From positions 1-36,261 of the IMG/VR virus record IMGVR_UViG_3300045125_000016: DNA of 36,261 nucleotides. The stretch is one strand, 5' to 3'. Every line of letters starts with the position of its first letter. Position 1 is the first letter of the stretch. The notes beneath the pieces are model-generated. The model saw nothing but the letters and a program-made list of their open reading frames with translations. It did no database searches and was not told the origin of the DNA. Source of the DNA: a virus. A program made the translations under genes and the position numbers. Below are positions 9,813 through 18,367 of the stretch, piece after piece.

Positions 9813-12323
9813 AGACACCACCTTGACGTTTTTGGTCGATTAGCACTTTAACAACAGCAGCCTCAATCTGTTTTGCAATTTGCGTTGTATTGCCTTGCTC
9901 TTGGCGTAAGTCCCATTATCGTTAATTGTAATAGATACATTGTTCACCTGATTGCCTAGCTTGTTATTTGGAATGATTGTCCCTGATGTGCTTGGCACAA
10001 ACATCTCTGCACCTTGCTCACCGACAACGTAAGGTCCCTGCTGATACAGAGCCACCTGCTGCACGGAAACCACCAAATCCACTGAGTAAGTTATCAAACA
10101 CACCTGACATCGCACCCATTAGCGGCTCTGTCACCATTTTACGAGCCATTAGCTTGATAATGTCTTGTGCAATGCCTTTCAATACGTCTGACAATCCTTT
10201 TACCAGCTACGATTGCATCCTCAAATGCGCTAGTAAACGTCAAGCCAAGCTCTTTCACCAAGTCTTTAGTGCCATTGATGCCTTGTTTAGCCACTCTGTA
10301 GCGTTTATCTTCTGCTCTGATAGCAAGGTCAATTTCTCTTGAGTCCAATCTTTATTAAGCGCATATTGCTCATACGCGGCGATTGTGCTCAATCTCTAAT
10401 TGTTTTGCAGCACGAACCTTGTCATTTGTGATAATTGACGTATTCAAGTTCTCTGTATCTCGCATAATGCGATTGTATCTCATCCTCAAATGTTTTACTG
10501 CGAGCTGCGGCGGCATCGTCATATTCTTGCGTTGCAGCCATAACATCGTTAGTTTGTTTGATTGAGTCGTTAATTCTTGTGTTGCGCGTGCAAGGTCTAT
10601 TTGGTCTTGCGCCATTTGTCGCATCGCTGGTGATAATTGCACCATCAAATCTAGCTTAGATTGCATGATGCTTACGTTATCGCGTTCACTTTGGTTTAGT
10701 TCAAAGATAGCAGATAGGTCAGATGTGTAAGATGCCAATTCTTTACGCAAAGATATTAATCGTCTCTTGCGCTTGAATTTGTGATAGCGTTGAACGCACT
10801 ACAGCGAGTTGTGCGCCGTCAAATCTTAATAGTGATGCCTCATATCTCAAGTGTTGATGATTTGGAATCGTCAAATGTTCTCAGCTTGTTTTTTGATTTT
10901 CAATGAAGTTCTTCGGCTGCTTTAGCATCCTCAGGTGAAATAATTGCCTTTGCTGTTAGTTTATTGCCAGCAGTTGCAATTTTGCTTACTTTATCTTTAT
11001 ATTCGCCAAGTTTTCCAGTCGCACCAACAATAATCTGACGTTGCTCTGTAATCTTGCTCGTTAATATCCTGCATTGCGCTTGCAAATGCTGGATGGTCTG
11101 AAATAGCTTTGCGCTTACCTTCTAGGCGTTCAAGTCTTTTATATGCGCCAGCCAATACCTTAGTCTGCTCTACAATCTTGGCGTTAATATCATCGTATTG
11201 TGCAGAGATGCTTGTTTTCTTTTACTTCCTTCTGTCATTCTTTGTATTCTCGCAAGTGCATCGTCTACACCTTTAGTTGCATCTTTACCAAAAGACAAGA
11301 AAGCTAAGCCAGCAGCAGCCAAAGCAGCAACTAGACCAACTGGTCCAGAAAGCACAGTAATAATTGAGCCAATGCCAGTTGCGACAGATGCAATGCCGCG
11401 CAATATAGATGCGGAATAGATGCCAGCCAATGCCACAGCTAATCCACCTAGCAATGGGATAACAATGTTCAAATTGTCTGAAATTAGTTTAAGACCGCCA
11501 GCAACAGCCTTTGACACGCCAGTTGCTTTATCAAATTCACCAATAACAATCGCTGATCTGTTTTTAAGGTTTTGGTATTCACCTGATATTCGTATTGTAC
11601 TTGTTTTGCTTGCTCGCGTAATGAGTTAACCAACGCTGGGTTTTTGAACGCATTAGCCATTGCATCTGATGTCAACTTACCATCTGCTGCCATTTGTTTA
11701 AGCTGACCGATAGGCACCCCATGCTGTCAGCCAAAGCATCGCATCAATACAGGTGTGTTCTTCAGCCATTGACCTAAATTCGTCACCTGATAATTTACCT
11801 GCGCTAAACGCTTGTGATAGTTGAAGCATCGCGTTAGATGCCTCAGTAGCAGATGCGCCAGATACTTTAAGCGCAAGTGCGACTGTTTTTGTCACATTAG
11901 AGATTTGTGTTTGGGTCGCACCTAAGTCGCCTAAGTGAACGAGCCAATCGCGCATAAGTGTTACCAACTGCACCAATGTCGGCTTGAGCAGTTTTAGCAA
12001 TAGCGATTGAGTTCGTATGCTGCAGAAAACTCTTGCCTGGTTCTTTTGTGGCTAGTTTTAGCTGTGCTGAAACTTGGTATATCTGTCAATCGTATTGCCA
12101 AGCGCACCAATGCCAGCGATACCAATGTATGCGCCAGCAAGTGATTTTAGTTGTGTTGTAAGACTTGATGTTGATTTAGATAACGTATCGTTTTACCTGC
12201 CGATTTATCAATATCATCAGCCATTTTATTAGCAGATTTGCCAACATCATTAAATAACTTTGCTAAGCCTTTCAGTGGCGAAGTGTCAATGCTAATGCCT
12301 AGCCCTAGAATATCAATCGCCAT
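9805..12323 (-). CDS. H: Tape measure protein (lambda H-like)
   Basis: About 840 residues, and the longest gene of the tail module after J and the fibre. It sets tail length and is ejected with the DNA. The ATG at 12323 starts MAIDILGLGISIDTSPLKGL and has an AGAAAGGA ribosome site 10 bases upstream, so I prefer it over the TTG at 12329. A tape-measure core domain lies at about 12000-11480: ASATEASNAMLQLSQAFSAG, SGDEFRSMAE, MGVPIGQLKQMAADGKLTSD. A long hydrophobic stretch follows (11480-11290, LAVALAGIYSASILRGIASV). Coiled-coil-rich regions fill 11100-10370. The C-terminus reads VGEQGAEMFVPSTSGTIIPN, again typical, and ends KRQGGVYA overlapping the M start. Confidence 0.94.
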
Positions 12324-16460: not shown

Positions 16461-17609
16461 TTAGCCTAACAATACTGCTGCAAACTCTGGTTCCTAAAGT
16501 TTAGTACCCCATGCTGCTGATACGTTAAACATTGCTTTTTGGAAGCCTTTGTAAGCACGCACTTTCCAAATACAAGACCTGAATATGGGTCTTGGATTGT
16601 CATAGCGTCTACTGCTGCATCGCCGCCTGCTGGCATCGCTGGTGCGCGGATAGCCAATTCAAGAGCTGCTTTGTGGAATACCACGTTACGAGTAGAAGCT
16701 GCAATCAACTGTGATTGCTGTGTTATCAGCAACAGCTTGGCGTAAGCCATTAGCTGCCAATGTTACAACGCCACCAGCCAATGCAGATAGCAACTACATA
16801 CTTGTTAGTGTCACCAGTTGAAAGTGATGATGTCACCAGCCAAGATAGTGCCTGAACCAGTGTCAACAGCGATTGATGTAGCACCAACAGCGTAGCCTGA
16901 CGCATTGTTTACCAAGTAGCCTGAACCAGTACCAACGCTAGGTGTTTGGATACCAGCAGACTCTTTCTAACATGATGCCTTGCAAGTCTAACAATACGCC
17001 GTTACGCAACAATTGGTCAGAGCCATTTTCGTTAGCTTTTTGCAATTGTGCAAGGTTACGCAATTTAGTACCAGCAGCAGTGTTCAACACCATTGTTACG
17101 TCTGTCATTGGTGCGCCATTGTCTACCAAGATTTTACGCAATTCAGCTACTTCATTGAAGTTTGAACCGAATGGAGTAGTGCCAGCAGTACCGTAAGCGC
17201 GTGAAGCACCTAGATAAGCAGCAGTAGCCAAGTCAACCTCGATTTCGTTAGCCAATGTACGCATAGCTTGGCGGATTTGGTCGCCGTAGATTGTTCTCAA
17301 AGCCAGCACCGTTGTTAACGTGACGGATATCCTCACCAGTCCATGGGATTTGAACGCCACGAGATTTAGTAATAGACAATGTTTTGCTATCAACAGTTTG
17401 GTCTGTACCTTCAGGATAGTCATTGAAGGTGCATTGTCAACAGCAGAAGCAGCACGAGTGAAGTGTGAACGCACTACGTCATTCAAAGCTACACGCTCGC
17501 TACCATTACCGTTGATTGTTGCGCTAGATGCAACGCCTGTAAGTTCACGACCTACAATGTCGGCTGCCTTGTATAAGTCAGCAGCTAAATTGGTTAATAC
17601 GTTTGCCAT
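16461..17609 (-). CDS. Major capsid protein, P22 coat-like
   Basis: 383 codons. ATG 17609 has a TTAAGGAAAA ribosome site and begins MANVLTNLAADLYKAADIVG. The next parts read RELTGVASSATINGNGSERV, IRQAMRTLANEIEVDLATAA, YLGASRAYGTAGTTPFGSNF and TDVTMVLNTAAGTKLRNLAQ. An Ig-like insertion or mid domain follows (TILAGDIITF, GATSIAVDTGSG). The C-terminal half reads STRNVVFHKAALELAIRAPA, AMTIQDPYSGLVFG and EPEFAAVLLG. The N-terminus, the NEIE-DL helix and the RN-xFHK-A...R.P segment are those of P22-type coat proteins. At least five indels are needed to join the pieces. The stop is TAA 16463-16461. Confidence 0.92.
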
Positions 17610-17626
17610 TTTAGTTTTCCTTAAAG

Positions 17627-18243
17627 TTAATCAGTTACTTTAAAGCCCTCTTTCGCTAAATTAGCATCGTTCAGCATGAGATTTAGTGTCCCAATCTGTG
17701 CGTGAGATAGTTTTGCCTTGAGAGCCTTTATCACCACCGTTTGCGCCACCGCCTGCATTAGAGTCAGGTGCTACGAAGTGCTTCCACTTTCACTTGAAGC
17801 CCATTCCTTAATGTATTCGCCTAACGCTTTGTCGCCAATAACAGCCTCATATTTGCCGTCATTGTTTTTAATCATCGCCTGTTTTCCAAGTAATGCTTTT
17901 GCGGCATCAATTAGTTCAGGTTTAACTTTAGATTTAACGAGTGCATCTGTTAATCCAGCGTCAAGTAAATGTGTAGTCAAAGCACCGTCTTTTTCTTTTA
18001 ATAAGATTAGACAGGCGTTCAATCTCTTTTTTACCTGCTTTGCCTTCTGTTTCCAACTTGCTAGTCAATTCTGCGACTTGAGCTTGCAGGTTCGCGTGTT
18101 CCTCAGGGTCTATATCAGCACCTTTAGCTTTAGCTTTTTAGCTTCACTAAATCGGCTTTCAGCCCATTTACACTCGCTTCCAAAGACTCATTCTTGCCAA
18201 CAATCTCGTCTAGCTTATCTTGCGTTAAATCCTCTAACTTCAT
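17627..18243 (-). CDS. Capsid scaffolding protein
   Basis: About 205 residues, directly before the coat gene. ATG 18243 has a GAGGGGGCAAAA ribosome site and starts MKLEDLTQDKLDEIVGKNES, then LEASVNGLKADLVKLKAKAK and, by frame change, ADIDPEEHANLQAQVAELTS and KAGKKEIERLSNLIKEKDGA. These are long coiled-coil helices rich in Glu, Lys and Leu. A further segment reads DAGLTDALVKSKVKPELIDA, AKALLGKQAMIKNNDGKYEA. The end, after glycine-rich NAGGGANGGDKGSQGK, reads ISRTDWDT and EGFKVTD. Layout and position fit a scaffold that directs procapsid assembly and leaves before DNA packaging. Confidence 0.8.
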
Positions 18244-18255
18244 TTTTGCCCCCTC

Positions 18256-18337
18256 TCGGCACTGCCGATAAGTTTTAGGTCACAGACCTCACTACTATGT
18301 GGCACAGCCACGAAAACAGAATACACGGCACAGCCGT
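18256..18337 (-). repeat. Array of four 5-bp hairpins with 3-base loops upstream of the scaffold gene
   Basis: Four perfect stem-loops occur in the 124-base gap between the minor head gene and the scaffold. On the transcribed strand they are ACGGC-TGT-GCCGT (18325-18337), GTGGC-TGT-GCCAC (18299-18311), AGGTC-TGT-GACCT (18277-18289) and TCGGC-AGT-GCCGA (18256-18268). Stem sequences differ while pairing is kept. Loops are TGT three times and AGT once. Centres are about 21-26 bases apart. The last stem ends 12 bases before the scaffold ATG, just upstream of its ribosome site. This looks like a selected RNA structure, possibly a leader controlling scaffold translation or an RNA-binding site. The function is unknown. 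Confidence 0.75.
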
Positions 18338-18367
18338 AAATTCCACTAAAACTATTATATGCCAACT

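Follow-up and report, generated by a model that had tools for sequence, protein, structure and literature searches.

What is held in the 124-base gap between the minor head and scaffold genes of the uncultured-virus record IMGVR_UViG_3300045125_000016, and which molecule reads it? In the window, i.e. the whole 36,261-nucleotide stretch analysed here, the gap reaches from the end of the minor head gene (18368) to the scaffold start codon (18243–18241), and its mRNA carries four tandem hairpins, each with a perfect 5-bp stem and a 3-base loop, at successive spacings of 26, 22 and 21 bases. A preliminary description made from the letters alone had already counted four such stems, with loops TGT, TGT, TGT and AGT spaced 21–26 bases apart, ascribed them to selection on RNA structure, and guessed that they tune the scaffold-to-coat ratio, bind a phage protein, or protect the 3′-end of the minor head mRNA. 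The analysis below favours the first two guesses: because the central loop letter covaries with one scaffold amino acid, the scaffolding protein probably binds its own mRNA and thereby sets the amounts of scaffold and coat.

The cluster of four hairpins is not a product of chance. Across the whole window 34 perfect 5-bp/3-nucleotide inverted repeats were counted versus ~35 expected, so a single repeat of this kind means nothing by itself; in 20,000 dinucleotide shuffles of the gap, four hairpins never arose and three arose once, and no other tandem array of this type lies on the coding strand of the window. Minimum free energy (MFE) folding of the 5′ untranslated region (UTR) alone was only mildly unusual (z = −2.0) and paired hairpins 2 and 4 together, so folding energy by itself would miss the element, which comparison reveals; MFE folding of single UTRs is thus not decisive.

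In the closest relative (L004) all four hairpins persist, their stems carrying compensatory changes and their loops altered. Among nine UTRs of the window type, 92.9% of the stem cells were paired and both sides had changed at 15 of the 20 pairs (43 cells), as against 26–44% pairing and at most eight double changes in controls with the partners slid by 1–3 columns; the alignment was not fitted to the structure, which was itself taken from the window and is somewhat favoured by this choice. Compensatory base-pair changes thus exceed those of the controls. The preliminary description had named two outcomes that would speak against it: covariation at chance level, which these figures contradict, and an unrelated sequence in the same gap of relatives, which was found only for distant minor-head relatives, the gap being kept in L004 alone. 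Where a stem in the scaffold or coat UTRs held one non-Watson-Crick pair, this was G·U on the mRNA strand in 32 cases and A·C in 9, and the gene bodies and the opposite strand, serving as controls, were almost devoid of hairpins. The structured molecule is therefore most likely mRNA-sense RNA, G·U being tolerated on that strand and A·C not. Together with recurrence at the same place in divergent phages, the compensatory changes and the G·U asymmetry strongly support an RNA structure under selection.

This recurrence was determined by protein-guided retrieval of three divergent scaffold groups, namely the window type (group A), the cyanophage type (group B) and the type of L061 and L083 (group C), and of a coat group (group D). 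A script assigned the start codons and hairpins, its hairpin rules having been widened after inspection of groups A–C, and most loci are pieces of contigs. Tandem stems of 4–8 bp with a 3-base loop of central G, sometimes A, stand at the scaffold start in all three scaffold groups. From −130 to +60 of the scaffold starts, 46 perfect 5-bp hairpins were found in 34 loci of group A, 64 in 45 of group B and 78 in 53 of group C, mostly with NGU loops closed by C-G or U-A, versus 3, 7 and 7 in equal-length stretches within the scaffold genes, none of them with an NGU-type loop; most loci scored as zero hold related loops (AGA, UGA, UAC) or 4-bp stems. A DNA pattern scan for GGCTGTGCC N GGCTGTGCC returned many GC-rich coding repeats; its non-coding arrays, sorted by stem extension and downstream gene, were located directly upstream of scaffold genes (L042, L061, L074, L083), around the scaffold start codon (L032, L071, L073, L114), or directly upstream of coat genes (L021, L032, L086, L110, L124). 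The preliminary description had proposed a search of related phages for arrays before scaffold genes, and all three scaffold groups supplied them.

The scaffold-start hairpins often touch or contain the Shine-Dalgarno (SD) site, the position expected of a translational operator. The last hairpin of many group A loci, GUCC(AGA)GGAC, encloses it, another last hairpin, ACCC(AAG)GGGU, contains or touches it, and that of group C typically abuts it, as does hairpin 4 of the window, where the array ends right before the scaffold ribosome site as already described. Group B has one hairpin in place of the SD and a second within approximately the first ten codons; in L073 and L114 this second hairpin is embedded in scaffold codons ~6–10 (APVEQ in the UGU type, EITSP in the UAC type), so the first scaffold residues there appear to be dictated by the RNA. 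Since the arrays follow the start of the scaffold or coat gene and some hairpins lie inside the scaffold open reading frame, a protective role at the 3′-end of the minor head message is disfavoured.

Among named phages, the element precedes both scaffold and coat in Synechococcus phage S-H1, and the coat gene in KBS-S-2A and, with G·U pairs, in Prochlorococcus phage MED4-184/P-HS2; a single hairpin precedes the scaffold gene in Pelagibacter phage Kolga and in DSS3_VP1. Outside the cyanophage type, hairpins are lacking in most of the broad phrog_247 coat relatives. Phage-record searches with the scaffolds of L004, L186 and L173 gave no match, leaving the window-type group without a cultured member among those records. 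The sole prophage-like match was L516, a contig of a Pseudoxanthomonas metagenome-assembled genome, whose lysine-type scaffold goes with AAA and AAG hairpins; 369 genomes of the same class yielded no further prophage member.

In cyanophage-type genomes, one or two additional hairpins lie in the coat UTR ~750 bases downstream of the scaffold array, and by automated tally the loop types of the two UTRs were identical in 73 of 74 dereplicated loci (UGU 38, UAC 27, UGC 5, CGU 3). One locus, L421, was tallied apart because an extra loop makes a tie there, although every clear hairpin is UGC. Seven changes of loop type are required on the scaffold tree, UAC having arisen at least twice, so the scaffold and coat loops have switched together more than once. 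The simplest explanation is a trans-acting reader of both UTRs. The first hairpin of the coat 5′ UTR in L191–L270 often has an internal loop, GGC-AA-AGC(UGU)GCU-GA-GCC, and UAC genomes read AAAGCUACGCAGAGCC at this position, so that the loop has switched there too.

Which protein follows these switches was examined in the six genes with enough data, the neighbour g42 having too few sequences. Seven columns tracking the two UAC clades at >0.8 were found in the N-terminal helix of the scaffold and none in the products of the other five, namely the coat, the minor head protein and three more neighbours; on this ground the coat protein was rejected as the ligand. Over approximately scaffold residues 19–45, residues are common to both UAC clades and differ from those of the UGU, CGU and UGC loci: the helix reads LKSSIxALEKKNFELIGKLK in the UAC type, LxAELEAMRRKNAELLDEYKK in the UGU type and LQRSIENLERKNKELADEKRK in the UGC type. 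AlphaFold predicts an N-terminal helix at residues 15–44 in L073, separate from the body, and at 8–41 in L137 with a modest predicted local distance difference test score, and the scaffold downstream of the array (phrog_206) is predicted to be mainly helical. The scaffold body between the helix and the coat UTR does not track the loop type, so linkage alone fails for the coat hairpins. The scaffold is thus probably the reader of the hairpins.

Within the helix, the covariation can be put as a rule on one residue. In the motif N-x-E-L-x-x-[+6], Asp or Glu at +6 goes with a central G and Lys with a central A; the tally was A 69, G 1 and T 2 for lysine, and G 225, A 6 and two others for the acidic residues. 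This rule was fixed after groups A and B and then tried on two later samples fetched by protein profile with the loops unused, in both of which it held. The first gave A 11 and G 1 with lysine and G 26 and A 2 with acidic residues, or, by locus, central A in 5/5 lysine loci and 12 G plus 2 mixed among acidic ones (L460 scored with a corrected start); the second gave A 13 and G 1 versus G 22, A 1 and T 1, and its RDELLxE variants also occur with AGA, UGA and CGA loops. In the cyanophages the +6 residue predicts the scaffold UTR centre in 75/75 loci and the coat UTR centre in 77/78. Trees built free of the helix gave three well-supported independent contrasts in the A-like group and three in the cyanophages (coat UTR), with none in the opposite direction; counted over all branches, the contrasts were five and eight. 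Protein and hairpin thus coevolve as would be looked for in an autogenous operator, the supported independent contrasts being few. The recognition of guanine by a carboxylate is chemically ordinary.

Several points weigh against this reading. Only three supported contrasts per family weakens the residue rule, and the Fisher P values for the later samples (4e-7 and 5e-8) ignore relatedness. The scaffold hairpins adjoin the helix codons, and linkage could add to the scaffold part of the covariation, not to the coat part. Two loci with a lysine at +6 (L464, L520) had no hairpin found, and one lysine/central-G locus occurred in the contrast analysis of the A-like group. Group C agrees with the rule but offers no test of it: a matching motif (e.g. 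RNTELSRD) lies mid-protein, is acidic where found and goes with central-G loops, while the regular expression was unmatched in 29/53 loci and lysine was not seen. The window itself lacks a coat-UTR array, and neither genes 11/13 of SPP1 nor genes 8/5 of P22 showed an array when checked. One cyanophage-type locus, L221, is discordant, with a scaffold UTR and helix of the UAC/Lys type and a coat UTR of the CGU type; it is likely a recombinant and a natural test of cross-recognition. In L439 and L440 a Glu-type scaffold (KNSELISEV) is accompanied by one central-A (UAA) and one central-G (GGA) hairpin; these loci are possibly an intermediate or an exception to the code.

From the selected structure, its location, the loop concordance at two genes and the residue–loop covariation, we infer physical binding, a repressive sign and a feedback from assembly. 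We consider it quite probable that the scaffold reads the array as an RNA operator in the 5′ UTR of its own mRNA, represses its own translation and couples coat supply to assembly. Each operator unit would comprise a stem of 4–8 bp closed by C-G (or U-A, U·G) and a triloop, its middle base being the letter read out; a short scaffold helix, N-terminal in the window and cyanophage types, would bind it, an acidic residue at one helix position recognizing central G and lysine central A. Scaffold outside procapsids would occupy tandem sites near or around the SD and start codon and block ribosomes, and newly made coat would pull it off the mRNA and let synthesis resume; in cyanophage-type genomes it would also act on coat mRNA, tying the supply of both proteins to procapsid assembly. 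Tandem hairpins would suit a dimeric scaffold, and gp11, the scaffold of phage SPP1, forms a dimer and a dimer of dimers (PMC6813328). The wider claim is somewhat less secure, though still likely: that scaffolding proteins would be a widespread, previously undescribed class of specific RNA-binding proteins reading triloops of their own and coat mRNAs via one helix, by an Asp/Glu–G and Lys–A code that has switched repeatedly with the pairs staying matched.

Bound to the hairpins of its own and the coat mRNA, the scaffold might instead activate translation or nucleate assembly, with co-synthesis and co-assembly of the two proteins and no repression. The residue–loop covariation and the presence of sites on scaffold and coat mRNA alike suit this equally, but many last hairpins contain, abut or replace the SD, where a bound protein is expected to hinder ribosomes; we hold it unlikely, repression being favoured over activation because of this occlusion, while the sequence does not settle the sign. 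About as improbable is a different reader, a protein or an RNA of phage or host, with the helix merely co-inherited with the scaffold hairpins in one recombination block. Phage genomes do recombine blockwise, the helix codons do adjoin those hairpins, and the covariation tests covered part of each genome's genes; however, the coat UTR hairpins match as well, although neither the scaffold body lying between them and the helix nor the coat and other neighbours track the loop type, and the residue rule holds also for a distant scaffold group and for both later samples. Generic stabilizers, protecting the 5′ region of abundant head mRNAs or shaping ribosome loading with no specific reader, would fit the need for many copies of scaffold and coat and the hairpins found upstream of both in some genomes, but other loop sizes or stable tetraloops would do equally well, whereas here loop size and letters are conserved and switch jointly at two genes of one genome, which makes this explanation very doubtful. 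A DNA-level element, whether operator palindromes or single-stranded DNA hairpins like the promoters of the N4 virion RNA polymerase, which likewise have short stems, 3-base loops and a central purine, is barely credible given that the mRNA strand tolerates G·U and not A·C (32:9), which in the comparison with N4 favours coding-strand RNA, and that placement follows ribosome-binding sites and enters coding sequence.

The preliminary description knew of no named RNA family with this layout, and in Rfam 15 the window array had no match near threshold (evalue mode), nor did five loci at the gathering threshold; no description of the element was found in the open-licence PMC papers searched. Coat proteins of MS2, Q beta and PP7 read a hairpin at a phage mRNA start codon via its loop bases, linking assembly to translation. 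The likeness would lie in a structural protein, here presumably the scaffold, reading the loop of a start-site hairpin; those operators differ in having a β-sheet coat ligand, whereas the present phages are tailed with double-stranded DNA, the presumed ligand is a helical scaffold and the 3-base-loop hairpins are tandem, and MS2 coat represses the replicase gene, whereas here the main target would be the scaffold's own mRNA. An MS2-type levivirus operator was rejected, the downstream protein being a phrog_206 scaffold predicted to be mainly helical. The scaffolding protein of P22 (gene 8) is autoregulated post-transcriptionally, scaffold outside procapsids lowering its own synthesis, which is the same kind of mechanism as proposed here; P22 has no hairpins before genes 8 or 5, so the element cannot be its mechanism. 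The P22 record (L432, 6102–6119) annotates a stem-loop, AGGGGC-TGCG-GCCCCT, downstream of the coat gene, noted there as similar in place to HK97 and lambda; with its 4-base loop it is not this element.

CsrA/RsmE sites are GGA hairpins overlapping the SD, often in tandem, whose loops are read by a dimeric protein that blocks translation. The short, often tandem hairpins at the SD are alike, but here GGA is absent as a rule, the 3-base loops are centred on G or A, and a protein from the host would not change with a phage residue; a CsrA/Rsm site was excluded, the window loops being UGU and AGU and GGA triloops minority variants in a few loci. Roquin reads constitutive decay elements, short stems with a pyrimidine-purine-pyrimidine triloop in animal mRNA 3′ UTRs, and triggers mRNA decay; a protein-read short triloop stem is shared, and the setting, the unrelated protein and the outcome are different. 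An intrinsic terminator was also rejected, no U run following the hairpins. In Cluster K mycobacteriophages, start-associated sequences (SAS) and their extended form (ESAS) are short repeats just upstream of starts, some with inverted repeats, and the authors suggest that they act in translation initiation and have an unknown ligand (PMC3203893). SAS is a fixed 13-bp GGGATAGGAGCCC at many genes, whereas here the stem is free, the loop conserved and the arrays placed at scaffold and coat genes; the gap sequence is without the 13-bp GGGATAGGAGCCC, and SAS was rejected by comparison with that paper.

We rate the array as belonging to a known kind, the autogenous translational operator, the RNA element and the candidate helix for RNA binding being new and accompanied by what appears to be a recognition code. 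Ever since the P22 scaffold was seen to lower its own synthesis, the balance between scaffold and coat in tailed phages has been a standing question. The present element offers an RNA operator together with a candidate for its reader, and its one-residue prediction is directly testable, also in cyanophages in culture, among them Synechococcus phage S-H1. If true, it would provide a new small module for RNA binding whose matched pairs occur naturally (UGU, UGC, UAC, AGA and AAG types), a possible addition to the MS2/PP7 tethering tools, and a regulatory role for scaffolding proteins, known as assembly chaperones.

The features of the window are collected in Table 1. The gene 3′ of the array begins MKLEDLTQDKLDEIVGKNESLEASVNGLKADL, its intact relative in L004/L137 matches phrog_206, a family of head scaffolding proteins, and a P22-type coat gene comes next.

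Table 1. Positions of the hairpin array and of the adjoining scaffold features in the window
Feature	Position	Strand	Basis
Hairpin 1, ACGGC(UGU)GCCGU	18325..18337	-	Sequence; all 5 pairs double-changed in relatives
Hairpin 2, GUGGC(UGU)GCCAC	18299..18311	-	Sequence and covariation in relatives
Hairpin 3, AGGUC(UGU)GACCU	18277..18289	-	Sequence and covariation in relatives
Hairpin 4, UCGGC(AGU)GCCGA, immediately 5′ of the ribosome-binding site	18256..18268	-	Sequence and covariation in relatives
Putative Shine-Dalgarno region GAGGGGG, abutting hairpin 4	18249..18255	-	Inferred, 5–11 bases 5′ of AUG
Scaffold start codon AUG	18241..18243	-	Sequence; scaffold of relatives L004/L137 is phrog_206
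Codons of predicted N-terminal scaffold helix, residues 8 to ~36 (to the frameshift in the record)	18136..18222	-	Prediction for L137 and covariation in relatives
Asp31, the +6 residue	18151-18153	-	Within the predicted scaffold helix codons

Relative to L004/L137, the scaffold, coat and other structural genes at 16938–18245 (−) of the window are frameshifted, probably by sequencing or assembly errors. Elsewhere, at 12040–12110 (+), an 8-bp stem with a UGU loop, GTTTTAGC-TGT-GCTGAAAC, contains one G·U pair and is followed by a shorter hairpin with a CGT loop.
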